DNA from: Mya arenaria | Taxonomy: Eukaryota > Mollusca > Bivalvia > Myida > Myidae | Assembly (NCBI RefSeq): GCF_026914265.1 | Contig: NC_069126.1 | Coordinates: forward strand, 75,209,232 to 75,273,231 | Reading direction: 5' to 3' | DNA: 64,000 nt | In this document: positions 16,857 to 63,729 of the stretch, piece by piece | How the letters are laid out: each line of letters opens with the position of its first letter | Position numbering within the stretch: the stretch's first letter is position 1 | Made by a program: the position numbers and the translations under genes | Notes under the pieces: generated by a model | Database searches by the model: none | Seen by the model: the letters and a program-made list of their open reading frames with translations, nothing else | Told to the model about the DNA's origin: nothing

Positions 16857-19800
16857 CTACTGTTTTTTTACCAAATCTTCGTACGCATTTCCGAGAGACG
16901 TCTTGTTAGTTTCCAAAGTTTCATAATGAGCGGCTAAGTCACTGCCTTGATCAATAGTGTCTTGTATGTCAAGGTATTGCTGAATGGTATCCATTTCATA
17001 ATGGACTGCTGATTCAGATGAATGTCTGAAAAATTAAGTGGAAAACATTTTGAAACGAGCTCTGCATAAATTGCGTAAACTATTTCAGGATAAAATGTAC
17101 TTTCAGTATTGACCATGTATGCGATATGAAACTGTTTGATATTGGTCTGGCTTACCTGTCTGTGTCCTTGCTTTGAGAACCAGTTGCTAAAATAAGAAAA
17201 TAAATTAAAAAAAACAACAACAAACATTATAAATTCAGTTGATTACACATGCATTTAAGTGTAAAGGTCATACAAGAAAGGTAAAAATAACATTCATATC
17301 ACCTTGCGCTGGGATCTTTGATATTCGTGAAGACCTCAGACGTTTTATGCAAATCACAAGTAGAACTAGCAAAAGGCAAAGTGCGACCCCGCCAACAACA
17401 CTACCAACAATAGCCCCGACTGAATACGTCTGTTCTGTAAATAATACACAAATAGATGGCATATGTGCCGAGTTGCGTTAGCGTAGATAGTAAAAAAACT
17501 CCAACCGATTTTTTTTACTGAGAACAACAAATAACCCCTCAATACTAAATTGCTTGAAGTTAAATTCAGTGATATGGCAGCGGCAACATCTATATTTATA
17601 AAGAGGTGATCTATGTGTTGATATTATTACGAATTTGACCGGTCCTTGCCAGTGTATTTCATTTATATCGTAAATTATTTAACTGAACTGATTTTTTTCG
17701 TATATACGGCTAATTTGAATGACGACACACAAACATATACTTCCCCAAGATGAAATATTTAGGTCTTAATATTATCATGCAATGGAAACTACGGGAAATA
17801 GCAGATGCCAATCACATGCAATGATTTGTTTCATACCGGTTTGCAGGTCTTTTGTCAGCTCTACTGTCAACAGTGTCTCTTTAAAGTCGTTCTGTATCAT
17901 CACTACGTAACGAGATGATTCAACATTTTCATTGACTTCTAACGATACATTTGCAATTATACCTTGCGTCGTAATGTAATGTTCAAACACAGGCAGAAGT
18001 ATTAAACCTTGATACAGACCTCGAACTTCGAACTCATCCTTTGTTCTGATACCATTTTCTAGTGGATATACATGTACTCTCACTGGACCGGAATTTGAGT
18101 AGATATGTAATTTAATGAAAGTATCTCTATCGCTTTTGGCCACTTTTACAGTATAAATGCTTCCACTGGGTAGATTGGGTTGAGCAAGAACTGGTGCATC
18201 TGAAAGGTGAAAATGTTACGGTGCAAAGTTACTGAAAGGGCTGTCTATTTGTGAAATAGTATGTTTTTAAAAAAACCCATCTTACAATAACATTTGTTAA
18301 TGCGCGACGTGGGCGTAATGCATAATATCAGTTTACTATATATGTTGTGTACATAGTTAGATGAAGAATGTACGTCAGTATTACACAGTTAACACAAACA
18401 CACGCATGTACCTTTTATCAAAATGTCTACTGAGGCATTTTTCTTGATACTCTGTGTGGCGTAATCTGCAATGCCATTGCTCACCGAGCAGTACCAAATC
18501 CCAGAATATTGGTACGATACACGAAACAGCTTGAGTGAATTTCCATCTGGGGGATAAGTGGCTACAATACCATACCCAGGCCAGTGCTGAACCCAGTCAT
18601 AGAAACTATAATTGTTTGGCACGCCTTTGGCATAACATCGAAGGGAAAAATCTGAATCGGTCGAAGTAGTGTTAACTGTTTCAATCAACACATCAGGTGA
18701 GTCTGAAACGAACTTTGAGACAGTATACAATGAACATGATAACACATAAAAGAAACTGTGATTATTAAAAAAACAAGCTACCAAATAGTAAACGAAAAAT
18801 CTCTAAACTATTTGGCATAAAATATGCGAAAAAAACCCGTTAACATTCCATACCAAAAGTACTTATATTCTTTCATATCTTTACGTACATTGGACCCCGA
18901 GGCTAAGTGTGGAACTACTTTCTTTTAGATATTCAGGTCTTATATTTCTCGAAACACAAGTATAATTTCCAGAATGATATCGTGCAATCGTCCCAAAAGA
19001 AATGATTCCTGACATTGTCGTAGTGGTATTATCTGTGTCGTTTTTCCACAAGTGTGTGCATCCGGGCCAGCAAACAGACGTGCAAATAATTTGAACCGTT
19101 TCTTCTCCTTCAATGACGACATACGGTGTCTTTTCGCTTATGACTGAGGCATTTGGACCATCTTCAATAATTTATAAAAAAACGACTTGATTCGGATTTT
19201 TAGCTTATAGATAAGTTATTAACATTTTATCCATCGAAATTAATCGTATATTTCCTTAAACATCTTATTTATACGTATATATCTTTGTGTATAACAAACA
19301 GTATGCAGAAATCAAACCAGAATCAATATTCGGAAGTCAGTAATGAGGTTTGCTGGTTTAATATCGTTCATATCTCTGATCTGAGGAAAGATACAGAGGT
19401 TATTGATTATAGGCTTACTTTAGTTTACCAGTACTTACATATTACATTAAACACTGCGGCATAACTTTCGTTGGAGGTAAATCCTTGTGCGACATTTTCC
19501 ATGACAGTGCACTTGATTTCCAATACGGTATCAGCCTCAGAAATCTCTTGAATTGTAAGATACTTTCCTCGTTGTGAAAAAACAAATCTTGAATTGTTTA
19601 AGTATGTATTGTTATCTATTATCCAAGTGTAGTTTAAAAGAAGGTTATGGCTTGCAGGAATGGTTGTTGAATTACTCGCACACATGAATGTCAGATTATT
19701 GCCCTCAAAGTACGCGTCTCTGCTCGGTGATAAATGGATGGCTGGTGTTTCGGGGATGCCTGAGATTGCAATTAAACAACACAACATTTAACGCAAGAAA

Positions 19801-26270: not shown

Positions 26271-29200
26271 TCAAGTCTCCTGCTTTTGTATCAAATCTTC
26301 GTACGCATTGCCGTGAGACGTCTTGTTAGTTTCCAAAGTTTCATAATGGGCGGCTAAGTCACTGCCTTGATCAATACTCTCTTGTATGTCAAGGTATTCC
26401 TGAATGTTATCCATTTCATATTTTGCTGCTAATTCTGATGAATGTCTGAAAAATTGAATAGAAAACATTTTGAAACATGCCCTGCATAAATTGCCTAAAC
26501 AAGGATAAAATGTACTTTCAGTATTTATCATGTATGCGAAATATAACTGATTAATATTGTTCGGACTTACCTGTCCGTTTCTTTGCTTTGAGAACCAGTT
26601 GCTGCAATAAAAAACCCATGACATTCAGCTGATTGCATGGACAATGAAGTGTAAAGGTAATAAAATACTGATTAAAATAAAAGTCATATCACCTTGCGCT
26701 AGGTTCTTTGATATTCTTGTAGACCTCATACAATTCACAAGTAAAACTACTAAAAGGCAAAGTGCGGCCCCACCAACAACACTACCAACAATAGCCCCGA
26801 CTAAATACGTCTGTTCTGTAACAAATACACACATACATTGCATATTTGCCGATTTGTTTTAGCTTAGGAAGTATTTCTTTAAACCAAAACAATTACTGAA
26901 AACAACCAATTACCCCTTAACTCACAATTGCTAGAAATAATATCCGGTGATATGGCAACGGCAACTTCTATATTACCAAGAGATTATTATATGGGTCCAT
27001 ATACATTTATTTAATTCATATTGTAAATGCTTTAGCTGATAGGATTGTTTTCGTATGTACGGCTAATTTGAATGATGCGAAACAAACATATTCTCCCCTA
27101 AGATGAATGAATGAGGTCTTGATTGCTAATTTAGATATCATTATGAAGTGGAAACTACGGTGAAAAGAACAGCAGTCAATCACATGCTATGGTTTGGTTT
27201 CATACCGGTTGGCAGGTCTTTTGTCAGCTCTACTGTCAACAGTGTCTCTTTAAAGTCGTTCTTTATCATCATCACGTAACGAGATGATTTCGCATTTCCG
27301 TTGACTTCCAACGATACATTTGCTATTGTACCTTGTGTCGAAATGTAATGTTCAAACACAGGCAGAAGTATCTCAGCTTGATACAAACCTATTACTTCAA
27401 ACTCATCCTTAGTTCTTATGCCATTTTCTAGTGGATATACATGTATCCTCACGGGACCAGAATTGGAGTAGATATGTACTTCAATCAAGATCTCTCTATC
27501 GCTTTCGGCCACTTTAATATTATGAATGCTTCCACTGGGTAGATTGGGTTTGACAAGCACTGGCGCATCTAAAGAATAAAAATGCTACGGTTTATATTAC
27601 TGGAATGACACTTTGTTTAGGAAAGATTATGCATTTTAATAAGAAAAACGGTTTATGTACGACGTAGGCGTAATGTTTGATATCATTTTATTATACAATG
27701 TATGTTGTTTACACAGTTAAAGGAAGAACCAACGTCAGTGACCATATACTGACCAGCGCTAAAATATGCATTTACCTTTTATCAAAATTTCCACAGAGGC
27801 ATTTTTCTTGATATTCTGTGTGACGTAATCTACAATGCCATTGCTCACTGAGCAGTACCAAATCCCAGAATATTGGTATGATACACTATCAAGCTTAAAT
27901 GAATCTCCATTTGGGGGATGAATGGCTACAACACCATACCCAGGCCAGTGCTGAACCCAGTCATAGTATATATATTTGTTGGGCACGCCTTTGGCAGAAC
28001 ATCGAAGGAAAATACCTGACTCCGTCGAAGTAGTGTTTACTGTTTTAATTAACACATCTGGTGAGTCTGAAACGAACTATAAGACAGTAAACGGAAAGAG
28101 CGAAACAATATCCCATAAAAAATGTGATTTAGTAAACATCCCAAGCTACCAAATAGTAATCGAGATATCTCCAAATAACTTGGCATATAATATGTGAAAT
28201 ACTAAATGTAAACACAGCAAACCAAACCTACTTATGTTTTACCGTTATTTGAAAGACAAACACTTCATTTCTGTACGTACATTGAACCACAAAGCTAATT
28301 GTAGAACTACTTTCTTTTAGATACTCAGGTCTTATATTTCTCGAAACACAAGTATAATTTCCAGAATGATATCGTGCAATCGTCCCTAAAGAAATAATTC
28401 CGGACATTGCCGTAGTGGTATTATCTGTGTCGTTTTTCCAAAATTGTGTGCATCCAGGCCAGCAAACAGACGTGCATATGATTTGATCCATTTCTTCTCC
28501 TTCAGTGACGACATACGGTGTATTTTCGCTTATGACTGAGGCATTTGGACCATCTGCAATAAAACGACTAAATTCTGGATATAAGCTTACTAGATATTAG
28601 TCACAACTGTGAACATTGCAACCATCGAAACTGTCGAAGATTACTTCAAACTTCGTGTTTATCTTTGCGTTTAGCAGTACGTATAACGCCGACCAGAGGC
28701 AATATGCGGAAGTCAGTAAAAAGACTCTCAAGGGTTTGAAGGGACTTGCTCATGTTTTATAAAATACACTTTCCTATGTATAAAGAAATGTGGCCACTTA
28801 TTAGGAGTGTTTAAATCTAAGATACCAACAGCTGGAACCCTTCAGCAAATGTTGATATTTGCTCAAATATCGTCTTTGAAGACCACAATTTTTATTAGTG
28901 TTTATAACGGCTATGATAGATTCGTTGTTGCGTAATGGGTTGATTGACATTGTCACGTGATGTTATTAATGTTTTGTTAAATGGTCAAAATATCCATTTC
29001 TGCTGTTTAAGTCCCGGTGGCTTAGTGATTAAGGCGTCTATTTTTTTTAATGTGTTACTGACTTTACCGGCGTGGGTTCGTACTGTTCTAAAACCAACAT
29101 ATATATTATACTATAATTGTATTTCTTCTGCAATTTCAATATCATAGAGTAAAAAAAATGATTAAATAAGTGTTTTCATATGCATTTCCGTAAAAACAAA

Positions 29201-46938: not shown

Positions 46939-46946
46939 CAGAAGAT
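46939..46946 (+). repeat. Target-site duplication, left (8 bp)
   Basis: CAGAAGAT lies immediately outside the left TIR and is repeated exactly at 63722-63729. An 8-bp duplication is characteristic of P and hAT superfamilies. Confidence 0.9.
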
Positions 46947-47664
46947 CACAGTGGCTTGATGACAAAGGCGCATTAAAGTCACAATAAAAAAATTCAACCA
47001 GCCAAAATTATATTTTATACATACTTGAACATGTATATCATCAATATAATACATTGCCATAAACATAAAATGAGATTTGAAAAAGAAAAAAAATACCCTA
47101 TACTGTAATATGAAACAAGTGAAGAATGTTCGCTCGGCGAAAACGTAAACAAAGACCAATTCTCGTCGAAAATGATAACTTCCAACTAAGCTACAAACAA
47201 AATACCTGGCTCATATATGCAGCGACCAGTTATGTGCAGGTTAACACCGGTATCCTTGTCGAGAGAAACAGTATACGACGAAAATGCTTCAAAATGCGAA
47301 TTATCACAAGCGCTAGGAAGAGATTGTGCTGTCAAAATGACGTAGTACCCGGCTCGCATTCATCGATTAGCCAAAGCGACCGAAGGACGGGAACCACGGG
47401 AACAATCAACACTTTTACATAGACTATCGTTACCTTACCTCAAAAGGCACTCCTGTCAAATATTCAACCCCTCGTATAGTTTGCATTTTCTCAATTTAGT
47501 ACGCTGTTTGTATCATGATTATTACTTTATAGTAAAAACAACAACAAAATAGCATACAACAAGCGTTTTTCACAACGTCCTTCAATTCCTCAGAGACACC
47601 GAGCCCCGGGCTCTCCTCGCTTTCATTCTCAACTGGCACGCTCGTTTCTCACTGTGTTGTCTGC
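46947..47664 (+). repeat. Left terminal inverted repeat of giant element
   Basis: 718 bases matching the reverse complement of 63008-63721 with only a handful of differences seen by eye (single substitutions and one 4-base length change in an A-run near 47082). The inner limit is ACTGTGTTGTCTGC at 47651-47664. It includes an inward-facing 98-codon open frame (47126-47422). Confidence 0.93.
47126..47422 (+). other. 98-codon open frame within left TIR
   Basis: It encodes a basic, arginine-rich polypeptide beginning MFARRKRKQRPILVENDN. The same frame is open in the right TIR (63546-63250) with two residue changes. As the arms are copies of each other, this is not independent proof of coding. 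No family was recognised. Alternatives are a chance frame or a short DNA-binding leader. Confidence 0.3.
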
Positions 47665-47993
47665 AATTTTATTGCAATTAATACGGATTATTTTTTGTGT
47701 GTTTGGCTTGGCGGGGGATTTAAATTATCGTCTTTTGTGTTAACTTTTAATGTATCGTTTCTCTATACACCGTGTGGCTTTTTCACTTGGCGCCGGACTT
47801 TTTTTTATATCATCGGTGGATTTAAAGATTGTACAATTAGCGACTTTAGCGGGTTATCTGCCCCAAATCCCACTATAGGTGGCGCTGCTGTCGAGTAGGT
47901 CCTTTATCCGGGTATCCTCGGATCTTATCAATTCATCCACGCCATTGTTGTTTACCCAAGCGTTTGACAGTTATACATTGAAAGTGATTAATC

Positions 47994-49873
47994 ATGCCTG
48001 AAACAACTTGTGTTGTACCATTTTGTTCACGAAAAGGACGTCATAAGTTTCCGAAGGACAAAGCCCGACGAGATGCATGGGTGCACGCAATTAAAAGGGG
48101 AAAATCGAAGTTCGAAATGTGGTCACCTACGAAGTACTCGTATATCTGTGAGAATCATTTCACGGGAGATGATTACCACTCTGAGACGTATTCTGGTGAG
48201 AATAATGCGTTTATATTTGTTTTAATTCATTATAAATATAAAAGATTTCAATGCAAATAAGAAATAGCAGCCCTAATTTGCACACTGACCATATATACAA
48301 TATACATGTCAAGGAACTAAATCAGTAAATGTACAATGCAGTCCGTATGTGTATCTTTCGAATCTGTTCTTAATGGCTCTCAGTTATTTTCCGCATACCA
48401 GAATTTTGTCAGATTATGTAGTGACTCTGCAACCCCCTCTCCCTGTTTTCTCATTTCCCCTTTTATCCTCCTGTAATGTGGGTGGGGGTGGGGGGTGGTA
48501 AAACAATAAACTTGTGCAAACCCCCCACCCAAACCCCACCTGTGCAAGACTTACTTAGAAATCATAACTATTTTTTTGATCATAAATGGTGATTTTGATT
48601 TTGATATTTAATATTTCTATTTCTTTTTTACATTTCAGGGGTCGAACGACAGAAAAAGGCTCTCCGAAAAACCGCCGTTCCAAGTGTGTTTTCTTGGACA
48701 TGCCAAGACACATTGCAGAAGAAGAGGGCACGCAAGGACAGATGTCTCTCTCGAGATGCTAGAAAGAGGAAGCTATTCCACGACATTTCGAATATCAGTG
48801 AAGAGCCACAGCCAGAGTTTATTGCTCAGAAGTTAGAAATTGTTTCAGATGATTTGGATGTTGGGGCAGTTGAGGAAGTAATTCCAATGGACACTGAAAC
48901 TGTATCTGAAGTTGAAACTGATGTGCAAGGGATACCTTCATATGTAGATGCTGTGGTTCAGACACCAAAACAACCAGCATTTTCTATTTATAACTTTGAA
49001 CATGATTCAGCAGCAGTTCATTTTTATACTGGACTTGAAAATTATTTGAAATTTATGTTTGTTTTGAGTACACTTGGACCAGCAGCATATCATCTGAACT
49101 ATATATATCACTCTGTTATTAGTGTGACTGTGCCTGACCAATTTTTAATTGTGTTAATGAAACTTAGGCGACACACAACAAGCTTCGAACTGTCTAGAAT
49201 GTTCAATGTTGCTGAAAGTGTAATTTCAAACATATTCATTACATGGGTTCTCTTCATGGAGAAACAGTGGAGGGAACTCAACATCTGGCCGAGCCAAGAA
49301 CTTGTTAAGCACTTTGCTCCAAGCAGTTTCAAAAGAAACTACCCAAACACACGTGTTATAGTAGATGGAACAGAATGTCCAATTAAAAAACCTAAAAACC
49401 CAACTGCCCAGCAAGCCACGTTTTCAACATATAAAAACAGGAACACTGTCAAAGTACTGATAGGAACTTCACCAGGGGGTTTGGTTTCATATGTGTCACC
49501 TTCATACGGAGGCTCAACAAGTGACAGGCAGATTGTGGAGCGTAGCTCATTAGCTAAGATGTGCGATAAAAAAGACAGTATTATGGCCGACAAAGGTTTT
49601 AATGTACAGGACATTTTTGCGCCGCATGATGTATTTATTAACATTCCAACATTCTTTAAGAAAAAAAATAGAATGTCCAATGAAACTGTGATAAGAGATC
49701 GGAAAATTGCAAGTAAACGGGTGCATGTAGAGAGGATTATTGGACTGGCGAAAACATACAAGATACTGACAGAGCCCATGATAGCAACAGAAACCAAACT
49801 CTCATCTGAAATAATTTTTGTGTGTTTTATGCTGTGTAATTTTAGAAATGGCATTGTGCCCTCATATGCCTGA
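47994..49873 (+). CDS. THAP-domain DDE_Tnp_4 transposase (ISL2EU type, 478 aa)
   Basis: Exon 1 is 47994-48195 and exon 2 is 48639-49873 (phase-1 GT-AG intron); together 1437 nt, 479 codons with TGA. Exon 1 encodes a THAP zinc-binding domain: MPETTCVVPFC, then an invariant-type Trp and CENHF (C2CH), followed across the junction by AVPSVF, the usual THAP end. The catalytic core has VIVDGTECPI (Asp about 310), SIMADKGF (Asp about 385) and HVERIIGLAK (Glu about 432), the DDE_Tnp_4 triad. It is expected to bind the element's ends through THAP and catalyse cut-and-paste in the nucleus. No damage was seen. It is convergent with the YqaJ gene downstream. Confidence 0.9.
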
Positions 49874-49900
49874 ACTTACAAAAATATTTTCACCTTTATA

Positions 49901-50115
49901 TTAAAGCAACACTCTCATTCAAAATCAGAACTTACACACGTTATAACAAAAAATGAGTGATAAAGCTTTAACTTCTTATTATATAATGCATTTATAAAAA
50001 GTATTAATAAAGTGATAGCAAGATCAAAAGATCCTTCAAAAGAACCATAGTTTTCAACATTTATTCAACCTTTTTGGTCTATTAATCTTATTTGGGAGTA
50101 AGAGTGCTGCTTTAA
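49901..50115. mobile_element. TTAAAGC-type MITE between the two ISL2EU genes
   Basis: The inverted ends TTAAAGCAACACTCTCA and (reverse) TTAAAGCAGCACTCTTA lie just after the transposase stop codon. Same family as 31081 and 31678. Confidence 0.65.
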
Positions 50116-50833
50116 CATTTACTGTTTATGTTGTGTTTTTTTGTAAATAAATATTTAAATATGCTGATGTTTTCTTTAATGTGTTACTTATGCCAACAAG
50201 GTTTTATAAAATAGACACAGTCACATGTCTCTGGTATTAGGTGTACTAAAATTTAAATTGACATCATATTGGCCGTCAGGTGAGAATATCGACTCCGCTG
50301 ATAATAGTACTGGTTTTCACACGATAAATGGTTCTTAATCACGTGTCTTGTGCATGGTATTCATTAAAGCAAACATGAATCCGTTTGTCGCTCAAAAGCT
50401 CATCAGAGCTTATGCTTCTTATGTATTCTTATGTTGAAGCCGAAGTTTTTTTAAAAATCATTGGATATGACATGAGGTCAAAGTATTTAAACAATCTGTG
50501 GCAGGTGTGCACTACTTGCACATTAGTGACAATAAAATTTGGGATTTATATGTAACATTGATTTTCATTTATTTACATTCAAACACCAGTCGAAGCATAA
50601 TACTCTTATCATCTTTATACTCGACCAATCTGCTACCTTTCACGTGTTACTGTATAAAGACACCAGTCCTTTCTATTTGATAAACCAGATAAAAAATAAT
50701 ACAAATAAAACATTGAACCATTTTTATTTTACATTCAGCTAAGACCTTATACATATATACAGCTAATAAATGGAAACAAGTGTTTCACAATGATACATTG
50801 TTCACAAATAGTTTTCAATCAACAAAGTCAGAG
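50116..50833. other. Non-coding spacer between convergent ISL2EU genes
   Basis: AT-rich, with short overlapping frames only. Probable poly(A) region of the transposase transcript (AATAAATATTTAAAT near 50146). Confidence 0.4.
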
Positions 50834-51004
50834 TTAAAGCTGCACTCTCAAACTAAAACTTTAAAAAACTGAAATTTATTCTAACAGATTCCAAATAAAT
50901 GAGATAGAGATACATTCTATTGTGAACTATCTTATAAGACTTATTCTAAGATAAAAGAAATAAATATATTTCAAAACTGTCAATCTGTGAGGGTGCAGCT
51001 TTAA
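50834..51004. mobile_element. TTAAAGC-type MITE, short copy
   Basis: TTAAAGCTGCACTCTCA at 50834 and its inverse (GAGGGTGCAGCTTTAA) ending at 51004, 171 bases. It lies at the 3' end of the YqaJ gene and may provide part of its 3' UTR. Confidence 0.7.
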
Positions 51005-51029
51005 GTTGTTATAAAACAGTTCAAAACAC

Positions 51030-52812
51030 TTAAGTTTTATAAAAGTACTTTTCAAGAATTGCGGCTCTGAAATGTGAAGTATTGAACTGGTCAAGCTTGC
51101 ATATCATGTGTGCAATAAAGTTCTCATTCCGATGAATTCTAGTGAACAAAATATCACTCAAGGTGTATATTACCAAGTCACAAAATTGTCTTTCTGCACA
51201 GAACAGCTGACCCTGAATTTGAAAATAATATGGATGCTTAGTACTCAAAGTCAGATTTCCATTTGTCTCTTTCAAGTATGGCACAGTGACTGGTGATATC
51301 TTTTTGTGTTTAGCACTGAAGGGGCACTTATCTTCAATAAGTAGGTTTTCATCTACAATGCCATCGGGTGATGCACCTAAAAACGGAAGGTTTTTTGATA
51401 CAAATATCCCACATGGTTTTACTTTGACATTATTTTTGCTTTCATATTGATGGATGGCCTCCTTTTCATACTGAATTCCATGGCGCATTGCTTCTGTAGG
51501 TTTTAATCCTTTTCCCCGAACAAAGGACTTTGCCAAGTCATGTAAGTCAGTTCTTTCTGTTGCGGTACACACACGGTGAAAATTAGATGACTGAATTCTT
51601 TTCTCTCGTTCTTCAAACCATCGGTCGTTCTTGTTTTGTCCCCTAGTATACATTTCAATGTCATCCCTGTCCTTGTCACTTAGTTTGGTTATTTTACATT
51701 GTTCCAGGAAATTGTCTTCATGAGATACTTCAAAATAATCATGGTCATTGGAAATTGCACGAATATTGGCTGGGCTGAATGTCTGAAAAATTGGTGTCTT
51801 TGATATACCCCTAAAATTCATACAAATATTGTGAAAATAGTCTTGATATCCATCAACTTTACGGAATTTTTGTGGCCGAGGGTCAAAATCTTTAATGTCA
51901 CAAATATCTGCACCGCCCAAGTTTAAATCTCGTGCCTTAAGGGGGGAACCAGTATGCTTTTTTGCTTTGTGAAATGACTGCAATTTTTCTGTGCATGTTG
52001 TCTCAACTTTAAATTCTCCATCTTTAACAAATTTACAACATGCATATATCATAGTTCTAATATGTTTGCAATGTCCAAATGGGCCTTCTCCTGCACCACA
52101 TTCACACTGTGCTTCATGAATATATCCATTCTTGTGTAAAGAAATGTCTACAACATAATTAACCTTCTTCCTCATTTCTGCTTTACATGCCCCACGAACA
52201 AAGTCCAGAGATGGTGTCGAAAACAGTCGCATGTATAGAAGAAACTTGTCGTCGTACAGGTCTTTTACCTTCCCATCAAACTCCACCCGGTACTGGTCCA
52301 TGTATTCGATGGCCTTCTCCATTGTTATTGGTGCCATTTTAGCATCTGAATTTACATCTCTGTATCCACTAGTCTTGGGCAGGCTCATGTTGAATTCTGG
52401 TAGAAGATCTTCTTCCCTGTTGAAATTCTGGTTTCTGTCATATGCCTCCAGTCTGGAAAGATACGAAATTAACTTGTGATACCATATATTGTGTTAAAAA
52501 TTTCCCCCACCCACTGTATTTTGTCGTAAAATACATGTAAACACGAGCATATAATCAGCTAAAAGTCATTGCAATAAAAACACAAAAGTGTTCACATTTC
52601 AAAGCTTTATTAACATTACTAAAATGATAAAATTATTTGTTAAACAACTTAAATTATCAAGATATCGATTTAACAACTAGTTGTCCTCGGGCTACATTTT
52701 GTCAAGTTTACCTTTCGATTAATTCCTTCTTCCGTCCAGTCAACTTTGCATTGCGTCGCCTTAGCTCCGTTTTAAGCTGGCCTAATGATAAGGTGCAAAA
52801 ATTTGAAGCCAT
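51030..52812 (-). CDS. SAP-SWIM-YqaJ exonuclease-like protein of ISL2EU element (507 aa)
   Basis: Exon 1 is 52812-52712 and exon 2 is 52452-51030 (GT-AG); the sum is 1524 nt, exactly 508 codons with the stop. Exon 1 encodes a SAP DNA-binding motif (LSLGQLKTELRRRNAKLTGR). Exon 2 has a SWIM zinc motif (QCECGAGEGPFGHCKH) and then a YqaJ/lambda-exonuclease-like nuclease fold: GIQYEKEA, LGASPDGIVD, IEDKCP and YYFQIQGQL carry the acidic and lysine residues and the Gln helix of the family. It is expected to trim DNA ends or aid element excision and repair; the precise role in ISL2EU transposition is unknown. No lesion was seen. Confidence 0.88.
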
Positions 52813-53152
52813 GTTGCGATATCAATTGAATATTTACAAATTTTATCGGAATTTTATCACCACTGTTATCGATCTGTAATACGGAAGTAAACTAGGGACC
52901 TATTCGACAACAGCGCCACCAAACGAGCACCTGTTTGACAAGGGCAGATAACCGACTAAAGTCCCCCATTGGATCAATTGCATTTATTAATTGGAAAAAT
53001 GGATTGATTTTCTTCGATCATATATCTTGTACACAATAGTAAAAGACTTCAACTTCAAACACTCCAAAACATGGTGGAGGCTAAATATATCATATCTTGG
53101 TAAGTAAAATGAAATAAGCTCGTAATTTCAAAATTATGATATTGATTAAGAC

Positions 53153-53154
<2 letters not shown>

Positions 53155-53227
<73 letters not shown>
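53155..53227. repeat. (GA)n microsatellite
   Basis: About 70 bases of GA dinucleotides with two GGGA interruptions, between the end of the nested element and the P-type transposase frame. Confidence 0.95.
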
Positions 53228-53229
<2 letters not shown>

Positions 53230-53348
53230 CGATAGCTTAACGTTGATATTAAAAAGCAAGAACTATTTAATTTAGTTAAATGATATTAATGTCATAAGTT
53301 GTTATTCTAAATGGTTACTAGATTTATTTTTATTTATTTTATTGTTAG

Positions 53349-55630
53349 GTTGCAAAGATTCCGGCTCAAAATATTTTTGCCAAGCTTATCAATGAAGGTG
53401 GTGACAAGTCAAAATTTCAGCTTGGTAAATGTATTAATTTTCTGTTCCCGTCCGTTCAATTGAAGAGAACATATTCGTCTGTAAATCAACGCACGCAAAA
53501 TATTTACCAAAACTTGATTGAAAAGAAAACAATCCAGAAAACATACACTGAATTCAAAACCATAAATCAGTGGGTACCAAGTCCATATTTTGTTTGTGGA
53601 AATGACGACCAATCCATTTTGTTTGCAGTATTTTCTGATAAAGTTAATGGGAATGCAATAATAAAGAAGATAATATTCCATACGGATGGCGATTGGTCCT
53701 TGCAAATTGGCGACACTGATGTTAAACTGGCCGATTACCATATCGATACCAGTTATTCAATAACAAGAGAATCAATATTCTATATTTGTTCTATCGTTTC
53801 ACGTTTGCAAATATGCGTCGGGAAACCAAAGGGAGAATGCAAGGGCGAAATATATGTATCCAAATATGTCATGAAAGAATTATTTGGAGAAGACAAAATT
53901 CAAACATTTCGTTCGTCTACCTGCCAAAAAGTTGTTTCACCTTTGGCATTGACCAGGACCTGTCGTAAATGCCAGTATATGTATAGAAATGCTGAAGCTA
54001 CGTTTCAATCAAATGTCGTTCTCCCAAACATTGAAAATAATACCGATGCAGAACTTCAAACTAACACCGCAATATCCTCCAATGATAATAATTATATTGA
54101 TAATAGTTTTGTTCTAAATGATGACAGCCATGCGGATATGAAATCAATTTTAGAACAAGTTCTTCCTGGAGCTCCACAAGAAATGATAAAAATGCTTTTG
54201 AATTAGAAACAAAATTTAAACAGAAACCCCAAAGGCAGACAATGGGATAAAAACACTATAAGTCTTTGTCTTTCACTTTGGTGCAGAAGTCAAATTACGA
54301 ACAATTACGCAATAGTAAAATACTTACACTTCCATCTGGAAGATGGCTTTCCTATTATAAGGAAGTCGTTGACCAAAAGGCTGGTTTTAATAAAGATGTT
54401 TTTTATGGATGAAAAATGAGGCCAGAAAATTAAAAAAATCAACAGAAGATGAATATCTAGGAGGTATTTGTATCGACGAAATGAGCATTCAAGAAGATCT
54501 TTGCTATGTTAAATCGAATGGCCATATTAAATTAGTCGGATTTGTTGACATGGGTCAAGATAGTTTTAATTTTCACCGTCTTACAGGAAACAAAGAACGT
54601 CCACTTGCTACTCATGTTTTACAATTTTCTATATCTGGGTTTAGACGGCTTTCGATTTCCGTTTGCTTGCTTCCCAGTAACCCAAACAAAAGCTGGCGAT
54701 TTACATTTTTTATTCTGGGAATCAGTGAAATTTTTGAATATATATGGCTTCCAAGTTCTTTTCATATCTATGGATGGAGCACAGACTAACCGGGATTTCA
54801 TGCACCTATTTTTCGAGAAATCAACACCTAAAGATGAGAACTTCAGTACTAAAAACATCTGGTCTCCACACCACCCAGATATTATTTTCATAATGGATTT
54901 TTCCCATGTCATAAAAAGAATACGCAATAACATTTTAAAAAGTGGCGATACAAAGTCTTGCACCCGAATTCTTCATTATAGCAACCCTATACTTCGGGAT
55001 CATTGGATTCAAGCATATAAATGGGACCGTGATAACAATTCATTTCCAATTCATCGCAAACTCACAAATGAACATTTTTACCTTACTCAAGAGTCAAAAA
55101 TGCGGAACAAATTAGCTGAAGAAACCCTTACCGGCGATATGCTTCATTTAATGGAATGTTTTCAGAATTTTCTTGGCGACAATGGTCACGAGCTTGATGA
55201 CACCATTGCTCTTTTGAAGGCGACAAGTGTAGTTATTAGCATTTTTCGAGACACCAGGCCAATAAATGATGTTTTTGATGAACGCCTTGATCAACTAGAA
55301 ACCTCTTTATCCTGGTTCAACAAATGGGAATCACATATTAAAAGTATTGATAATCTCACCAACGCCGAAAAGGACAAAAAACTCATATCAAAACAAACCA
55401 GAGAGGACATTAACTCATGTATAACTGGATTTTCGTCTCTTTGCAAGAATACATTTTCCTCTTCAAGATCGACCATTGTTCCTGCCAGAGTCGATAGCGA
55501 CGTTATAGAAAATATTTTTTGTCAACAACGAGGGATCGTAAATGGTAACAACACTAACCCCAACTTTTATCAATATTCTAAAAATATAAATACAATCTTA
55601 TTTGGACAAAATGCAAAAAAGGGGCTGTGA
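53349..55630 (+). pseudogene. P-element/THAP9-type transposase, decayed
   Basis: Four successive open pieces on the plus strand carry P-superfamily signatures in order: a Cys-pair region (CRKCQYM), NPKGRQWD, LTLPSGRWLSYYKEV, GGICIDEMSIQEDL (first catalytic Asp), FPFACFPV, VLFISMDGAQTNRDFMHLFF (second Asp), IMDFSHVIKRIRNNILKSG, and VDSDVIENIFCQQRG then NPNFYQYS (C-terminal acidic residue). One in-frame stop (54204-54206) and about three frame changes (near 54290, 54407 and 54640) break it, so it should not make active enzyme. The start is unclear: an acceptor lies at 53347-53348, while an ATG exon at 53071-53099 does not join in phase. The N-terminal THAP domain usual in this family was not found. 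It is the only transposase of the giant element proper. Confidence 0.85.
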
Positions 55631-58272
55631 ACCACTTTGTTTTAACATTGACATGCCTATTAACCCTTAGAAGAGAAAAACTGTCGATAGTGCCATTGTA
55701 AGAAAACCTTTTTCTGTCATTAATAAATGAATTTTAGATTATTTTGACATTCCACCGCCCATTCAAAAAATGATATTTTTACGTAACTAGTTTGTGCATT
55801 TAAGTGTTGCACACTTCGAGTTTATTATTTTTATATTTAAGTGCTCGAGTTATATATCAAATAGCCCGCCACGCATAAATGTTATAGTTTGATTGACTGT
55901 GTATTGTTTAAATCTCACCGCTTGTGGTCTGATCCTCGCGAGTTTGGACTGTCCTGACAGCTGGATAAGATCACAAGTTTCTATTCCGTATATAGAAAAC
56001 AGTTAAGTATCTATACTCATTCACAATTGAAATTCTAAGTTTACGTAACTTGGTTTGTTTACTTCGAAGTTATTATTTTTATATTTAAGTGCTCGAGTTA
56101 TATATCAAATAGCTCGCCACGAATGAATGTTATAGTTTTATTGACTATGTATTGTTTAAATCTCACCGTTTGTGGTCTGATCCTCGCGAGTTTGGACTGT
56201 CCTGACAGCTGGATAAGATCACAAGTTTCTATTCCGTATAAAGACAACGATTTAGTTTCTATATTCATCACTCATTTAGAATCCACGTAACGTACGTGTA
56301 TATTGGCTGTTTTTCGAGGTGTTCTTTGAGATAAAGACAATGCCAGAGTAGCCTTATGAATGAGTAAATTCACTCATTAATTTTACTATTAAATGATATA
56401 AGAAAAACAACAAACAATCTATGACATCCAGATAAGTTTTATGTACAGTTGTTAATAATTGACATATACCTTGAAGATATATTTACACAAGATGCAATTA
56501 GATATATTCTTAATCATGAAAGAAAGTATAATAGAGTACATGCATCATAATCTTACAACCGAATAAATTATCACCATATTTGTCCTTTCTTTTTCTTAAA
56601 TTAAGTATGTGTATGAACATACTGATGATAAACAAAACATAATCTGAAGTGCATGTGACATAAATGAATGAATATACTACAAGTAAAGTATATTATTACA
56701 ATAGCAACAACGCTCGTGTGATATTTTAGTTGTAAAGAGACATGAACTCTATACCAGCTAAACATTTAGCTGTGCGCCTTGCAATACAAATGCTAGCGCA
56801 TAATACATGATCATATTTACAACGCATAGATGATATAGAGCAGCAGAAATGATATAATTAAAATCAGGCATTAAAAAGGTTTGATGAACATATAAAGTTA
56901 TACAATGTTGATACCATATCGGTTAACAAGAAATGCATAGGTCTCTAAGCAACTATCAAGCGGAGGTGAAATAACTATTCCAATGTATAAGCTTCTAATA
57001 ATGGAAATAGATGTTTAAACATGGATTTTTAAAAACAGTTTAGATCCTCTCTCAGTGGACATGTTTTATAAAAGATTTATGCATTGTGAGCTAACAAGTT
57101 GCCAATTTTAGAAGTCAATATCAGATTACGGTGGAATTATCACGGTGATGCTTTTTTCACGTGACTTTGGTCACCCAATCAATATTGTGTTTAAATAGTT
57201 GTTTTAGTAATGTAATGTACATGTATAGTGACTGTATTTCGAAGTATTCTTTGGGAGGCTTTGACAACGCCATGTTTATCAGATGAATACATTCATATGA
57301 TAACATTTGTATTCATTCAAGAAGCTGTATCAGTGTATGATAATCTGAATTACGCACCGAATAAAATAACACTTTCAATGTTTGTCACTTTTCTTAAAGT
57401 CTGTATGTGAATGGACCTCATGATATCACGTTGAAACTGTATTATACCTTTAAAAATCATAATAATGAAATCATCATTTGGTGAACATATAAGGTAGACC
57501 ATGTCGATACCATAACACTTGACAAGATATACAAAAGTACATAGTAGTGCATACTTTTATATGAGTCTCTATAAGCCTCTAACACACAGAGGTAAAATAC
57601 ATAACCCATCTAAAACTTCTATGGAGCTAGACATTAAACATTGCATATCAGTTTTATAGCACTGGTAAATATCTTTAATCTACCGAAAGTCATAATGATT
57701 ATGAAAACACAAGTGTAAAATATAGAATATCTGTGAAAACATGCACACAAGGAAAAGGAAATCTATTGGTATATAGTTATATCATTTTTTATTTGGGTAA
57801 CGTTTCAACTGTTTTCCTAAGGTGGAGAGGTGACATCTTAAATTAGCCTCGGGAAACTGTTCAGAATGACCTCAATTAAAAAACTGCTTAAATCAGCAAT
57901 CATAGCCATCCCCTTATCGACCAACACTGTATGTATGTCAAAACCTATTGCATTAAGCTGTCTAGGCAGTCTAAACTCGCGATAATAAAATGAGCATTAA
58001 CATAAAATCGTTATATAATAATAATGCTCTACCACCTTGACTTATCAATATATGATTAATATCTGGCTAAGTGCTGTTTATATACATGTTCAATTTAAAA
58101 ACAGATCCAACATTTCTGACAATGTGCACCTATAAACATGAACACAGGCGATTTAGGAACTACATGCATGTAAATAAGAAAGACCACTGATCACATAATT
58201 TAACACACCAGTGTCTCAACTAGTTTAAACCATTGACAAAATTGCATCCTGATGACTTTAATCATATGTATT
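55631..58272. other. Non-coding middle part of giant element
   Basis: AT-rich DNA without genes. It holds a direct duplication (55823-56250, listed separately) and, at about 57950-57985, a lone copy of the AAGCTGTCTAGGCAGTCTAA core found in the array at 59221-59668. Confidence 0.6.
55823..56250. repeat. Direct duplication, two units of about 240 bp
   Basis: TTTTATATTTAAGTGCTCGA and the following 160 bases (including CCTCGCGAGTTTGGACTGTC and CTGGATAAGATCACAAGTTT) occur at about 55826 and again at about 56068, about 95% alike. Located 3' of the P-type transposase. Confidence 0.85.
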
Positions 58273-59033
58273 TTATCTACACACTGATTGAATAATTTGA
58301 AACAACCACTTTTGTGATAATTCACTGATGGGATGTACTCCATCAGTGAACATTGCACTAGAGAGTGATTTCCTGTGGCTTTGTTCTTGTGACGATTTCC
58401 TTTTCCTTGTTTGTATGCAGTCTAAAATAAATTTAGGTGACATATAGTTCAAATGAATATTGACATTATGTCTTATATAATCATTGACGATCTCAACCTG
58501 AGCATGCATATCTTGGTCCTTGAAAGTTTCCCACTGTGGATGATTGTTCAAACAATTCCATTTAGACCAAAACACAGGGGGAACTTCCAAAACACCAAAA
58601 TCTACATGCTCATGCTGAGATTGCAATGAAACAAATCTATCAAATATTGGCTTTAGTTCTTCAAGAAGTTGCTCTGGACGATGAAATCTTTGCAAAAGCC
58701 ATCTTTCTGGGAATTTAAAAATGTTCAAGTCACATGTAACATGCCAGAAGAGTACAATAGTCCTTCCCGGTGGAAATCCGTTCGCAGCAAGTTTTTCTTC
58801 TATAAGTCGTAAACCATCCGCAGACTTACGGCCACCTTTAAACCAAACATGGACAGCATTTCTAGGTAAAAACCGTCGGAAAGCATGAAATTGTTGATAT
58901 ATTTTCCCTTGCTGTCAGATATTATGAAGATGTTGTCGTAACACAGGTTAAATTGTAAATGTTCGTCTTCCATTTTCTTTTTGAGAAATTTACGGATTTG
59001 TCGAACATCATATGAATCTGACGACGATGCCAT
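58273..59033 (-). CDS. SGNH/GDSL-hydrolase-like protein carried by the giant element (one frame change)
   Basis: From the ATG at 59033 (MASSSDSYDVRQIRKFLKKK) the frame gives block I, IISDSKGKYI (nucleophile-Ser type motif). At about 58900 the frame shifts, then continues through VWFKGGRKSADGL (block II-like), VLFWHVTCDLN (block III-like, with TCDL as in mobile-element relatives) and ends with MFTDGVHPISELSQKW (block V Asp/His) before the stop at 58273. The order and spacing fit an SGNH hydrolase of about 250 residues. Substrate and role in the element are unknown. The frame change suggests a damaged copy or a sequence error. It lies directly downstream of the helicase/PHD unit on the same strand. 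Confidence 0.65.
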
Positions 59034-59220
59034 TCTAAATAAAAAAGACATACTGTACTTGATGATAATATATGACATAACAACTATGGCTTAATGTCAA
59101 TAATTAAAGAAATAGATACAACATTACATAAAAATTAAAGTAGGTATGTACATGTACTACCAACGTTTAGAAATAACATTATTTTGAAATGATCGGACAC
59201 ATAGAACTATGCATGAACGC

Positions 59221-59668
59221 ATTTCATTTAGCTGTCTAGGCAGTCTAAACTCGTGAAAATAAAATGCGCTCAAACATACTAATAACGATGCATAAACTTG
59301 TGAATATGGTCTATAGTTAGACAAATTGAATATATATTTTTGCCTGTGAAATAACAGAAGGACGGACGGTATAAAAGGATAACTTATAAGTTTAATTTAC
59401 ATTGTATGCCTAAACGCATTGCATTAAGCTGTCTAGGCAGTCTAAACGCGCGATAATGAAATGCCCTCAAACATACTAATAACGCTGCATAAACTTGTGA
59501 ATTTGGTCTATAGATAGACAAATTGAATATATATTTTTGCCTGTGAAATAACAGAGGGACGGATGGTTTAAAAGGATAACTTATAAGATAAATTTACATT
59601 GTTGTATGCCTAAACGCATTGCATTAAGCTGTCTAGGCAGTCTAAACGCGCGATAATGAAATGCGTTA
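59221..59668. repeat. Tandem repeat of about 200-bp units with near-palindromic core
   Basis: AGCTGTCTAGGCAGTCTAAA occurs at about 59230, 59430 and 59628, each followed by GATAATGAAATGCGCTCAAA-like text and a shared 150-base body (including TTTTTGCCTGTGAAATAACA). It amounts to two complete units plus a partial third. CTGTCTAGGCAG is nearly self-complementary. Position between the SGNH and PHD genes suggests a regulatory or protein-binding array, which is an inference. Confidence 0.85.
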
Positions 59669-59708
59669 AGGCATATATACAAAAGTATATTTAATCCTAA
59701 ATAGAGTA

Positions 59709-60212
59709 TTATCTACAAAATGGGCACAAGAACTGTTCATCGCCTTCAAAATATTCCCAGTCTTCGGATGTTATAATTCCCACGCAGCTTCCATGAACCC
59801 ACTTATTGCAATTGTCACAGCATATCCAGTCGGGTGTATTATCATGACATTTTTTACAAATAGTACAACAATCTGAAGAATCTTCATCAATGCTTGCCAG
59901 TTTTTGTTTTTTTGTTGATTTGCTTTGTTTACTTTTTGTCCGTTTGCCTTTTCCTTTATCCGATGTACTTGAAGATGTCAAAGATGATTGTGGTATAGGT
60001 TCAGAAGTATCTTTAGGTTGAGATTGATCATTAAATACTTGGGGAGTTAACATATTGTCACATTCTATAATTGCTGTTACTAGACTGTCATTCATGTTTT
60101 CTTTTGTATGTTTAGTTAATACGGGAATTTCATAGGCTTCACACAGTAATTGAAGGTCTTTCTTCTTATAAAATTGGACATTAAAGTATTTGTTGTCAGT
60201 TAATATAGTGGC
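59709..60212 (-). CDS. SAP-like/PHD-finger segment, in frame after helicase stop
   Basis: Immediately after the helicase TAA the same frame stays open for 168 codons to 59709. It has a SAP-like helix (YKKKDLQLLCEAYEIPVLTK), a Ser/Lys-rich linker, and a C4HC3 PHD finger: CTICKKCH, WICCDNCNKWVHGSCVGI, FLCPFC. PHD fingers usually read histone H3 tails. The first ATG is at 60095. Either the helicase once ran on into this segment and a TAA separated them, or the PHD part is translated on its own. No intron is visible. Confidence 0.75.
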   Translation of the reverse strand, partial: ATILTDNKYFNVQFYKKKDLQLLCEAYEIPVLTKHTKENMNDSLVTAIIECDNMLTPQVFNDQSQPKDTSEPIPQSSLTSSSTSDKGKGKRTKSKQSKSTKKQKLASIDEDSSDCCTICKKCHDNTPDWICCDNCNKWVHGSCVGIITSEDWEYFEGDEQFLCPFCR

Positions 60213-62750
60213 TTAGGGTTTAAGATGGGAAGATACTTTTCCGTTAGACTTGTCTGAGCAAATTTCACTTATACTATTTTTTTTATTCTCCAGCTTCTGC
60301 TTCTTTTCCATTATTTTCTTTCTGTGTGCTTTGGTTTTATCTATCTTAATATGTGTTAGATAGTCTTTTCTATAGTAAGATGCGGACACGGCAATAAATT
60401 TAAAACAAATTTCAGTGAAAAGTTCCTCAAGTAGTGTAAACTCGACCATGACATCTTGGTGGTTATCCATGTCAGTAAATAAATTCACCCACTGTGTTTT
60501 CAGTTGAACGTCATAGTTTATTTTAGATTTGACATTTTCTATAACAAATTCACCATGTGTGTGCAAATTCTCAAACGTCTCAAGATCTCGATTTTTTTTA
60601 TTTAATTGTTCGAAAAACTCAAAAGAGTTGTCACTTAAATTGGTTAAGCTTTGTCGTTTATTCTGTTTTTTAGCTGTTGCGTTTAGTGTATCGGCATGCT
60701 TTGAAGACGATGAAAGGTTAGCAAATGAATCCGATAAGTAATTAAGATAAGATACTTTTTGTCTAGATGAATTTAGTCGTACAGCTTTCTTTGGGTCATA
60801 TAATGAAGACTGTACCTGTTGTTGATATTTATATCTTAACTTTGCTACACAATAGCCGCCAACGTATCTAAGGTTACCCCGACCATCTTCGGACTTTCCG
60901 GACGGAATCGCTCTTTCTTGGATATCTGGACTTTGAACGAGAGTTGCTTTATGTTTAATTTCAAGAGACTGTATTTGAAACATAACAGATGTGCAAAACA
61001 TTTGACCATATTTCGACTGAGAAGTATCATAATGAACCAACAAATCCTTGCAACCCTGTATGTATAAATCGCTTTTCAAATAAGAGTTCAATTTAGTACA
61101 AAAAGATGTAATTTGCTTTTGTTGAGCCTTTTCGGTATCTGGAAATTGTTCATCGGATATAGATTTTACATGAAGAAATTGATCTGACATCCAGTAAAAA
61201 AACTTAGTATCGTCTAAACCAATTTTTTCCTTTATATTGCTTATTTCCTGTTCTATCGGTGTATATTGATACTCGGCGAAAACAGAGTCAATGTAGCTTA
61301 TGTAATCTGGTACTGGGCTAGGACCATATACATTTGCATGTTCTACAAGTTGCTCTGGTGCTGAATTGATAAGATTTTCTTCATCAATGTATTCGTTGAA
61401 GTCTGGATCAATGTCCACAACCTCATTAATGTCAAATGGCGAAAACAGATCAGTTTCAAGAACATTTGAAATCAATTCCCCCCGGCAGCAACTTTTATCT
61501 ACTTGACATTGTAAAGATTCGATTGAATAAAAAATATGAACAGATCTTGGATGTTGCGTTACTAAAGCTGGCCTAAAGTTTTTTAGTTGAATAGTATCTG
61601 GTGAAGTAGTCCTACCCAATGCAACACCTATTTGACCCGGGGTCCTCGCATCCTCACAATCCACAATAACTGAATTTAAAGTCATACCTTGTGATTTATG
61701 AATAGTGATTCCGAAAGCCAAGATAAGTGGAATCTGTAATCGCTTAGCTAAAGATTTGCGAGTAACTGGATCGACTTTAGTAAATGTATGTCTTTCAATT
61801 TTGACCAATTTATCGATGCTTTCAAAATACACGGTAACATTGTTTTCGTTTATTTCATTAACAGTACCAGTAAGACCGTTCACCAATGTATCACTTAGGT
61901 TAACGACAAGCATAACTTTACAATTCTTTTTTAATCCCAAAGTAGCTGGCGCTGTAAATTTATTCAAATAGTATTTGTCACCTTCGTCGTTTGCTTTATA
62001 AAGCATTAAATCACCATCGATTGTCATGAGTTTGTCATGGTTGAATAATTTTGTTTTATAGTCAGTGGCAAAAAGATGAACCGTATTTCCATCTTCAATT
62101 ATTGGCTTTGACAAAGCATTTAGATAAGAGATGGATTCATTTGTTAAATTACCCTTCTCTACTTCATTCACACAATTGACAAATTCGGAATCAGTTTGTC
62201 TAAAGACGTTTGACAAGTTGACATGATGTGGGATTGCATTAAAGAAATTTCGAGAATCAAAACAAAATGTTCCTGTTTCACCATACAACATTTCTGGTAC
62301 GGGTGGAAGTTGGTAAAAATCACCACCAATAATAATTTGAATACCACCAAAAAATGTATTAGATTTCCGAACAGACCGGCATATTGATTCAATGGCATCA
62401 AAGAGCTTCTGGCTAAGCATAGAGCATTCACCAATTATCAGAATATCACAATTGAAAATGCGGTCTCGAGTATTCTGATATTTTTCTTCTACGGGAATAC
62501 ATTTACAAAGATCTGCTGTCATGCTCCCATCTCCAATTCCACACCAGCGATGTATTGTCTGTCCATTTGAATACCGAGTTGCAGCTATACCAGTTGTAGC
62601 AGTTACACTTATATTTTTATTTTGAGAAACAAAATGTTGGTACAAATGGTTCAATATGTATGTTTTGCCTGTTCCGGCTTGGCCTGTTATAACGAAGTTG
62701 TGGCCACTGTCTGCCATTTGGAGACATTCATTTTGTTCGTTACTGAACAT
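60213..62750 (-). CDS. PIF1-like DNA helicase carried by the giant element (845 aa)
   Basis: Start chosen at the ATG at 62750 (MFSNEQNECLQ), the usual PIF1 beginning; an in-frame GTG upstream (62810) is less likely. Helicase motifs: GQAGTGKT at 23-30 (Walker A), TATTGIAA at 50-57, LIIGECSM (motif II), GGDFYQLPPV (motif III), TIHKSQGMTL and VALGRTT (motifs V/VI). Residue 107 is Gly where PIF1 proteins have the catalytic Asp of DE, so ATPase activity is doubtful. The C-terminal half has acidic stretches, a short RYVGGYCVAKLRYKYQQQ region of unknown function and a lysine-rich end. No Helitron Rep domain is fused or nearby. It is oriented inward from the right TIR, which should contain its promoter. 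Confidence 0.88.
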   Translation of the reverse strand: MFSNEQNECLQMADSGHNFVITGQAGTGKTYILNHLYQHFVSQNKNISVTATTGIAATRYSNGQTIHRWCGIGDGSMTADLCKCIPVEEKYQNTRDRIFNCDILIIGECSMLSQKLFDAIESICRSVRKSNTFFGGIQIIIGGDFYQLPPVPEMLYGETGTFCFDSRNFFNAIPHHVNLSNVFRQTDSEFVNCVNEVEKGNLTNESISYLNALSKPIIEDGNTVHLFATDYKTKLFNHDKLMTIDGDLMLYKANDEGDKYYLNKFTAPATLGLKKNCKVMLVVNLSDTLVNGLTGTVNEINENNVTVYFESIDKLVKIERHTFTKVDPVTRKSLAKRLQIPLILAFGITIHKSQGMTLNSVIVDCEDARTPGQIGVALGRTTSPDTIQLKNFRPALVTQHPRSVHIFYSIESLQCQVDKSCCRGELISNVLETDLFSPFDINEVVDIDPDFNEYIDEENLINSAPEQLVEHANVYGPSPVPDYISYIDSVFAEYQYTPIEQEISNIKEKIGLDDTKFFYWMSDQFLHVKSISDEQFPDTEKAQQKQITSFCTKLNSYLKSDLYIQGCKDLLVHYDTSQSKYGQMFCTSVMFQIQSLEIKHKATLVQSPDIQERAIPSGKSEDGRGNLRYVGGYCVAKLRYKYQQQVQSSLYDPKKAVRLNSSRQKVSYLNYLSDSFANLSSSSKHADTLNATAKKQNKRQSLTNLSDNSFEFFEQLNKKNRDLETFENLHTHGEFVIENVKSKINYDVQLKTQWVNLFTDMDNHQDVMVEFTLLEELFTEICFKFIAVSASYYRKDYLTHIKIDKTKAHRKKIMEKKQKLENKKNSISEICSDKSNGKVSSHLKP

Positions 62751-62784
62751 TTTTGTATGAAAAAACAAGTCTTGTAAACATGCA

Positions 62785-63007
62785 CGGACGGCGGAAAAAC
62801 ACACCCACAACAGACGAAATGTTCAGTTTGTTTGCAGAAATATGACGAAATATAACTGATATATATATATGTAATATGTATAAACTATGTTTCCATGAAC
62901 TGGCAAATGTGTAGAATAAACGGAGTTCAGACGAAATATACGTATAAAGATGCACGGACGGCGGAAAAACACGGTGGAAAAACACACACGCAACAGACGA
63001 CACTACA
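62785..63007. repeat. Short repeats between helicase start and right TIR
   Basis: GCACGGACGGCGGAAAAACA occurs twice (about 62782 and 62951), each followed by CAACAGACGA-type text. It is the probable 5' leader/promoter region of the helicase gene. Confidence 0.6.
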
Positions 63008-63721
63008 GCAGACAACACAGTGAGAAACGAGCGTGCCGGTTGAGAATGAAAGCGAGGAGAGCCCGGGGCTCGGTGTCTCTGAGGAATTGAAGGACGTTGT
63101 GAAAAACGCTTGTTGTATGCTATTTTGTTGTTGTTTTTACTATAAAGTAATAATCATGATACAAACAGCGTACTAAATTGAGAAAATGCAAACTATACGA
63201 GGGGTTGAATATTTGACAGGAGTGCCTTTTGAGGTAAGGTAACGATAGTCTATGTAAAAGTGTTGAGTGTTCCCGTGGTTCCCGTCCTTCGGTCGCTTTG
63301 GCTAATCGATGAAGGCGAGCCGGGTACTACGTCATTTTGACAGCACAATCTCTTCCTAGCGCTTGTGATAATTCGCATTTTGAAGCATTTTCGTCGTATA
63401 CTGTTTCTCTCGACAAGGATACCGGTGTTAACCTGCACATAACTGGTCGCTGCATATATGAGCCAGGTATTTTGTTTGTAGCTTAGTTGGAAGTTATCAT
63501 TTTCGACGAGAATTGGTCTTTGTTTACGTTTTCGCCGAGCGAACATTCTTCACTTGTTTCATATTACAGTATAGGGTATTTTTTTTTTCAAATCTCATTT
63601 TATGTTTATGGCAATGTATTATATTGATGATATACATGTTCAAGTATGTATAAAATATAATTTTGGCTGGTTGAATTATTTTATTGTGACTTTAATGAGC
63701 CTTTGTCATCAAGCCACTGTG
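63008..63721 (-). repeat. Right terminal inverted repeat of giant element
   Basis: 714 bases, reverse complement of 46947-47664, ending GCCACTGTG at 63721. The inward-facing 98-codon frame of the left arm is present at 63546-63250. Confidence 0.93.
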
Positions 63722-63729
63722 CAGAAGAT
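63722..63729 (+). repeat. Target-site duplication, right (8 bp)
   Basis: CAGAAGAT, identical to 46939-46946. Confidence 0.9.

Follow-up and report, generated by a model that had tools for sequence, protein, structure and literature searches.

A P-superfamily transposon of Mya arenaria with long inverted ends and an enclosed PIF1 helicase-PHD frame

Introduction

Incomplete repair of the gap left by an excised transposon yields internal deletions. In P elements, the cut made by the transposase creates a double-strand break that can be repaired by homologous recombination or end joining, and new copies often insert close to promoters and origins of replication (PMC7776569); the double-strand gap left by an excised copy has been linked, when imperfectly repaired, to defective copies (PMC4168063). 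A 14-kb P construct in Drosophila provides a well-characterised gap-repair assay, in which efficient repair needs PIF1 when POL32 is absent (PMC8951532), and ScPif1 has been suggested to act in the migration of the displacement loop (D-loop) during break-induced replication (BIR) (PMC7073672). Here we analyse a 64,000-nucleotide stretch of the Mya arenaria genome (GCF_026914265.1, contig NC_069126.1, positions 75,209,232 to 75,273,231 of the forward strand), hereafter the window, in which positions 46939-63729 hold an element with long terminal inverted repeats (TIRs), a P-type transposase gene, a PIF1 helicase-PHD frame and an SGNH-like gene. An earlier sequence-only reading had proposed a giant, multi-gene P element at this locus.

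Long TIRs in the P superfamily (Galileo), a helicase in a DDE transposon (AcademH), and PHD and esterase domains in the ORF1 proteins of long interspersed nuclear elements (LINEs) are already known. A review of giant eukaryotic transposons, in the portion bearing on P elements, mentions them only for engineered constructs (PMC6431247), and among the matches listed from the open-licence literature, a body of work outside which Repbase and most subscription papers lie, no title concerned a helicase gene, of the PIF1 class or any other, in a P element.

Results

The locus is delimited by a left TIR of 718 bp (46947-47664, plus strand, starting CACAGTGGCTTGATGACAAAGGC) and a right TIR of 714 bp (63008-63721, minus strand), which were defined by repeat search and arm alignment and agree at 709 of 714 aligned bases with a single 4-bp gap. 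An exact 8-bp target-site duplication, CAGAAGAT, lies at the outer edge of both arms (46939-46946 on the left and 63722-63729 on the right); with equal base use assumed, perfect agreement over 8 bp at such preset edges would arise by chance about once in 65,000 cases. Because this match stands at preset edges and the arms are long, we read the structure as a transposon insertion. The element itself begins and ends with CACAGTGG...CCACTGTG (CA...TG), and the CA start compares with CATACCTG of zebrafish Pdre2; to our knowledge, termini starting with CA are general across the P superfamily. A local inverted duplication or an assembly artefact would fit the single copy seen here, but it would have to account for a perfect duplication of 8 bp placed exactly where both arms end on the outside, together with CA...TG termini, and we regard it as scarcely credible.

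On the left side of the element lies a P-type transposase gene (53349-55630, plus strand), which is broken in this copy: reading the three frames by eye showed an in-frame TAG and three shifts of frame, all lying from about 54200 to about 54640. The P/THAP9-type catalytic domain PF21787 matched its unaltered pieces at 1.8e-8 (profile 15-80) and at 0.0014 (profile 81-134, below the Pfam cut-off), the two matches being complementary and lying on either side of one frame change, and it matched with an E value of 6.4e-17 over profile positions 2-134 of 137 when the gene was read with X at the breaks. Three D/D/E-like motifs, CIDEMSI, SMDGAQTNRDF and VIENIFCQQRG, were found in the gene and are presumably catalytic. 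The open reading frame (ORF) at 53349 has no early methionine and is preceded by a splice-acceptor-like TAG, so that the gene apparently extends to the left of 53284; an AG microsatellite of 36 units (53156-53227) lies in this apparent 5′ intron.

Only one other transposase was found inside the TIRs, and it belongs to a nested ISL2EU element of 5,130 bp (47838-52967) that does not belong to the P element proper. Elements of this family make AT duplications in A|AT|T targets and mostly encode a THAP/DDE transposase together with a YqaJ protein (PMC4482050); their TIRs "usually" start with GG, and autonomous members have a mean length of about 4.84 kb (PMC4482050). The nested element, recognised by its inverted ends and Pfam matches, shows the same edges (ACA-AT-[...]-AT-TGG), with AT duplications at 47836-47837 and 52968-52969, and encodes a transposase with a THAP exon (47994-48194, plus strand; PF05485, E 2e-12) and an open DDE_Tnp_4 exon (48605-49873, plus strand; PF13359, E 5.1e-39), as well as an open YqaJ-nuclease ORF (51030-52493, minus strand; PF09588, E 1e-18). 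Its inverted ends, located by repeat search at 47834-47902 and 52896-52971, match over 30 nt at 83% and over 25 nt at 92%. The element thus resembles ISL2EU, of the PHIS superfamily, in its AT duplications, its THAP-DDE and YqaJ genes and its right tip (GGGGG), and differs in a diverged left tip, TAGCG, without GG. Because its own duplications are the 2-bp AT, the ISL2EU transposase did not make the 8-bp duplication of the outer element. Neither a stop nor a frameshift was found in the ISL2EU frames that were read, compared with 2.5 lesions expected if it were as old as the P element (P = 0.08), which fits an insertion later than the P element without proving a later date.

A single unit of 16.8 kb is ruled out by this nesting, and once the 5,130 bp of ISL2EU are subtracted the P unit measures 11,643 bp. 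The sequence-only reading had described near-identical inverted repeats of about 715 bp, an exact 8-bp duplication abutting both ends and P-type transposase motifs inside, all of which were confirmed; the transposase gene is present but broken in this copy, and membership of the P superfamily with long TIRs is well supported by the 8-bp duplication, the CA...TG termini and the P-type RNase H domain. Its term "giant" was overstated, as 5.13 kb of the 16.8 kb is a separate insertion, the ISL2EU element, of which that reading makes no mention.

The right side of the locus carries the other genes, both on the minus strand. Next to the right TIR is an ORF for a PIF1-class helicase (60213-62822), whose first methionine, at 62750, is separated from the inner border of the TIR by 258 bp. 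It matched PF05970 at 3.1e-35, PIF1 as the top PDB entry at 7.4e-59 and the Dda-like helicase phrog_325 at 1.1e-47, and it contains superfamily 1 (SF1) helicase motifs as well as the PIF1 domain, although motif II reads GE where PIF1 relatives have DE. A tblastn search with the helicase matched 387 of 50,697 phage records, none of them covering 80% of the query, and among the matches listed (10 of 387) the alignments lay within residues 2-449. The C-terminal region of the ORF, about 430 residues in the middle of the helicase-PHD frame, is without assignment: no Pfam match rose above the cut-off (three had E values of 0.17-0.34), and its AlphaFold model, with a predicted local distance difference test score (pLDDT) of 35.8, was too poor to use. 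The same frame then runs through one TAA (60213-60215) into a PHD finger (59709-60212; PF00628, E 4.4e-7), for which the best PDB chains were the PHD fingers of DIDO1 and BPTF, which we take to be readers of histone H3 trimethylated at lysine 4 (H3K4me3). In our reading, helicase and PHD make up a single gene that has acquired a nonsense change in this copy; we reject two separate genes because the frame is shared and only one TAA interrupts it.

Further to the left is the SGNH-like gene (58273-59033), with its start codon at 59033, one frameshift and a second frame at 58914-58273. It was recognised by motifs only, IISDSKG and, in another frame, DGVHP, which we assume to be SGNH motifs. Profile scans were made with the second-frame piece of 212 residues; they returned no Pfam match at 0.1 and no PDB sequence match at 10, and the AlphaFold model of the piece was too poor to use (pLDDT 41.4). 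The name SGNH is therefore provisional. As regards the cargo announced by the sequence-only reading, the helicase was borne out and the chromatin-reading module holds as a PHD finger, with the correction that the two domains occupy a single frame cut by one TAA and do not form two genes; for the SGNH gene the motifs remained, without Pfam or PDB support for the scanned piece and with a frameshift in the frame.

These genes could be passive cargo, with PIF1 captured from the host and PHD and SGNH taken from a CR1/L2-type ORF1, and without a role in transposition. LINE ORF1 proteins are known to contain PHD and esterase modules (PMC4120745, PMC3905857), and selection cannot be shown from one copy. 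The PHD finger, however, sits in the helicase frame and not with the SGNH-like gene, and no reverse-transcriptase match was obtained in the nine reads scanned with Pfam. The helicase frame is moreover open over 869 codons, a length that is not in itself a test of selection. In one study, esterase-type ORF1 turned up only in the vertebrate L2 and CR1 groups (PMC4120745); another also lists transposon esterases from cnidarians and sponges (PMC3905857), which leaves room for a LINE source. We consider this explanation improbable.

A 27-bp core recurs six times in the P unit, lying 3′ to the P, SGNH and PHD frames. Copy 1 (55936-55962, minus strand; TCGCGAGTTTGGACTGTCCTGACAGCT on the plus strand) and copy 2 (56184-56210, minus strand, inside the second 208-bp repeat) were found by repeat search, copy 3 (57956-57982, plus strand; AGCTGTCTAGGCAGTCTAAACTCGCGA) by motif scan, and copies 4-6 (59230-59256, 59427-59453 and 59627-59653, plus strand), which lie in a 197-bp tandem repeat, by both. 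All six have one sense relative to the transcription of the preceding gene, and copies 4-6 (59230-59653) also lie upstream of the SGNH start. Four of the cores (57956 and 59230-59653) are the only matches with at most 3 mismatches in the 64 kb, and the remaining two depart from them by an indel. When the two kinds are compared, their match scores 37. One shuffle in 2000 attained this value, and no stretch of the window outside the repeats scored above 23. The core could be a 3′ regulatory element or a transposase-binding element. The search for RNA families gave none for the repeated core, its sole match being mir-392, elsewhere and below the gathering score, and the tRNA search found no tRNA. 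The 208-bp and 197-bp repeats (55813-56268, 57931-58004 and 59205-59675) have in common only this partly palindromic core. Between the P and SGNH genes, the non-coding stretch 56287-57650 contains a diverged direct duplication (79% and 82% over 58 and 45 bp).

Taking these features together, we hold it somewhat probable that the locus holds one cut-and-paste transposon of the P superfamily, about 11.6 kb long, which has TIRs of about 715 bp and encodes a transposase, a PIF1-PHD protein and an SGNH-like protein. Its history would then comprise an insertion with 8-bp duplication, followed by decay, and the insertion of ISL2EU near the left TIR. In the three P-unit genes, 2 stops and 4 frameshifts were counted over 5,937 coding bp, compared with 0.9 and 4.1 expected from the divergence of the TIRs, and the lesion load of the genes is compatible with that divergence. 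That the helicase-PHD(-SGNH) block is part of the P element, as the sequence-only reading had it, is favoured by the position of the block next to the right TIR and by the core common to both sides, but it is not proven from one copy.

Alternatively, the locus could be a nested mosaic, in which a smaller P element is accompanied by a PIF1-PHD-SGNH block that is another mobile element without recognisable ends, inserted in the manner of ISL2EU. About 2.6 kb without ORFs of at least 100 residues, and with diverged repeats, parts the P gene from the SGNH gene; PIF1 domains also occur in Helitrons, Helraiser being among the PDB matches, and PIF1 is among the transposon-related domains enriched in parts of a pearl oyster genome (PMC9646362). 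Pfam scans of the same nine reads, however, gave no Rep/HUH domain match, the helicase adjoins the right TIR, and the 27-bp core occurs on the P side as well as on the opposite one. A scan for inverted ends (14-base ends with at least 12 matching) around three versions of the block (helicase-PHD-SGNH, helicase-PHD and SGNH) returned 3, 4 and 4 pairs, respectively, none with a duplication longer than 2 bp. We rate the mosaic as rather unlikely.

Several observations nevertheless weigh against the single multi-gene transposon. Nesting is proven once within this very element, by ISL2EU, a point that also favours the mosaic. Weak, short inverted ends at 53284 and 55725 (12/14, with AATGA on each side) bracket the P gene, likewise as the mosaic would have it, and 0 of 200 shuffles matched this bracket in a narrow test whose ends, cut-offs and blocks were picked post hoc; the pair lacks both the termini of P type and a duplication of 8 bp, and it would cut the apparent 5′ intron. 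A small P element bounded by this pair was rated low, since the P gene apparently starts before 53284. Only one TIR indel underlies the lesion estimate, so that its interval spans 0.1 to 23 indels, and the lesion load cannot tell a single insertion from two insertions of comparable age. Within the transposase, Pfam detected no THAP or other N-terminal DNA-binding domain in 53349-55630, the N-terminal exon was not found, no GTP-binding domain was matched in Pfam at E values up to 1, and there was no PDB sequence match. The helicase of this copy is probably inactive, to judge from GE in place of DE in motif II. Finally, there is one decayed copy only, and no relatives were seen in viral contigs (queries: helicase, P piece, TIR tip, helicase C-terminal region and SGNH piece) or in GTDB genome contigs (queries: helicase and P piece), scans that reach close relatives only and cover few eukaryotic sequences, so that these negatives say little.

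Elsewhere in the window, two similar minus-strand ORFs (17775-18215, HF.SDAPVL..., and 27180-27584, HFYSLDAPVL...) apparently represent a duplicated host gene family, and a weak immunoglobulin-like match was noted for another ORF, close to 17775-18215. Tandem arrays of units of about 145 bp, with 74-78% matches, occupy 12903-13749.

Discussion

From what is observed at this locus (the ends, the duplication, the gene content, the nesting, the single helicase-PHD frame and the lesions) we infer how a transposon of this kind might maintain itself. The transposase would excise the element via its long ends, and the element's own PIF1 would then drive long D-loop or BIR-like repair synthesis, refilling a donor gap of more than 10 kb from the sister chromatid; such refilling would spare a large element from loss or internal deletion. 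Through its PHD finger, the protein may attach to open chromatin by way of methylated H3 tails, probably those with H3K4me3. For the SGNH-like protein, a part in binding to membranes, which has been suggested for the esterases of LINE ORF1, is a guess. A large-P lineage that itself encodes a repair-synthesis helicase, joined in one protein to a histone reader, and in which the transposon and not the host refills the excision gap, is a tentative proposal that we would sooner doubt than assert. If it is true, element-supplied gap repair would turn cut-and-paste movement into reliably copy-conserving transposition.

Among described systems, the Drosophila P element has CA ends, as does the element analysed here. 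Zebrafish Pdre2 has ends that start with CATACC (PMC10983969), and in both the Drosophila P element and Pdre2/THAP9 the duplications are 8 bp long and the transposase is of P type (PMC7776569, PMC10983969), as in the present element. They differ in their TIRs, which are 31 bp in the Drosophila P element and 13 bp in Pdre2 as against about 715 bp here, and in the THAP domain of their transposases, which was not found here (PMC7776569, PMC10983969). The Drosophila P element is 2.9 kb long (PMC7776569, PMC10983969), whereas the present element measures about 11.6 kb and contains extra genes.

Helitrons likewise encode a PIF1-type helicase domain, and Helraiser (7lcc) was recovered in the PDB search with an E value of 5.8e-15. 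They possess a rolling-circle Rep domain and are not known to have TIRs or target duplications. The helicase of AcademH is of class SF2. AcademH is a lineage of DDE transposons with a helicase gene, but it has an Academ transposase and duplications of 9-10 bp (PMC10045372), in contrast to the 8 bp here. Galileo, a member of the P superfamily in Drosophila, likewise combines a P-type transposase with long TIRs, and some of its copies resemble the present element in having tandem repeats and nested transposable elements (PMC4168063). Its own duplications are mostly of 7 bp, with 8 bp in three copies, versus 8 bp here, and the structural part of its description gives TIRs and a transposase segment with no mention of a helicase or PHD (PMC4168063). 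Should the gene set found here recur, it would represent a DDE transposon whose helicase is of the class that has been linked to extended repair synthesis at the gaps left by P elements, and it would place a chromatin reader on a P-element protein. It would also test whether transposons can grow past a size limit that host gap repair imposes.

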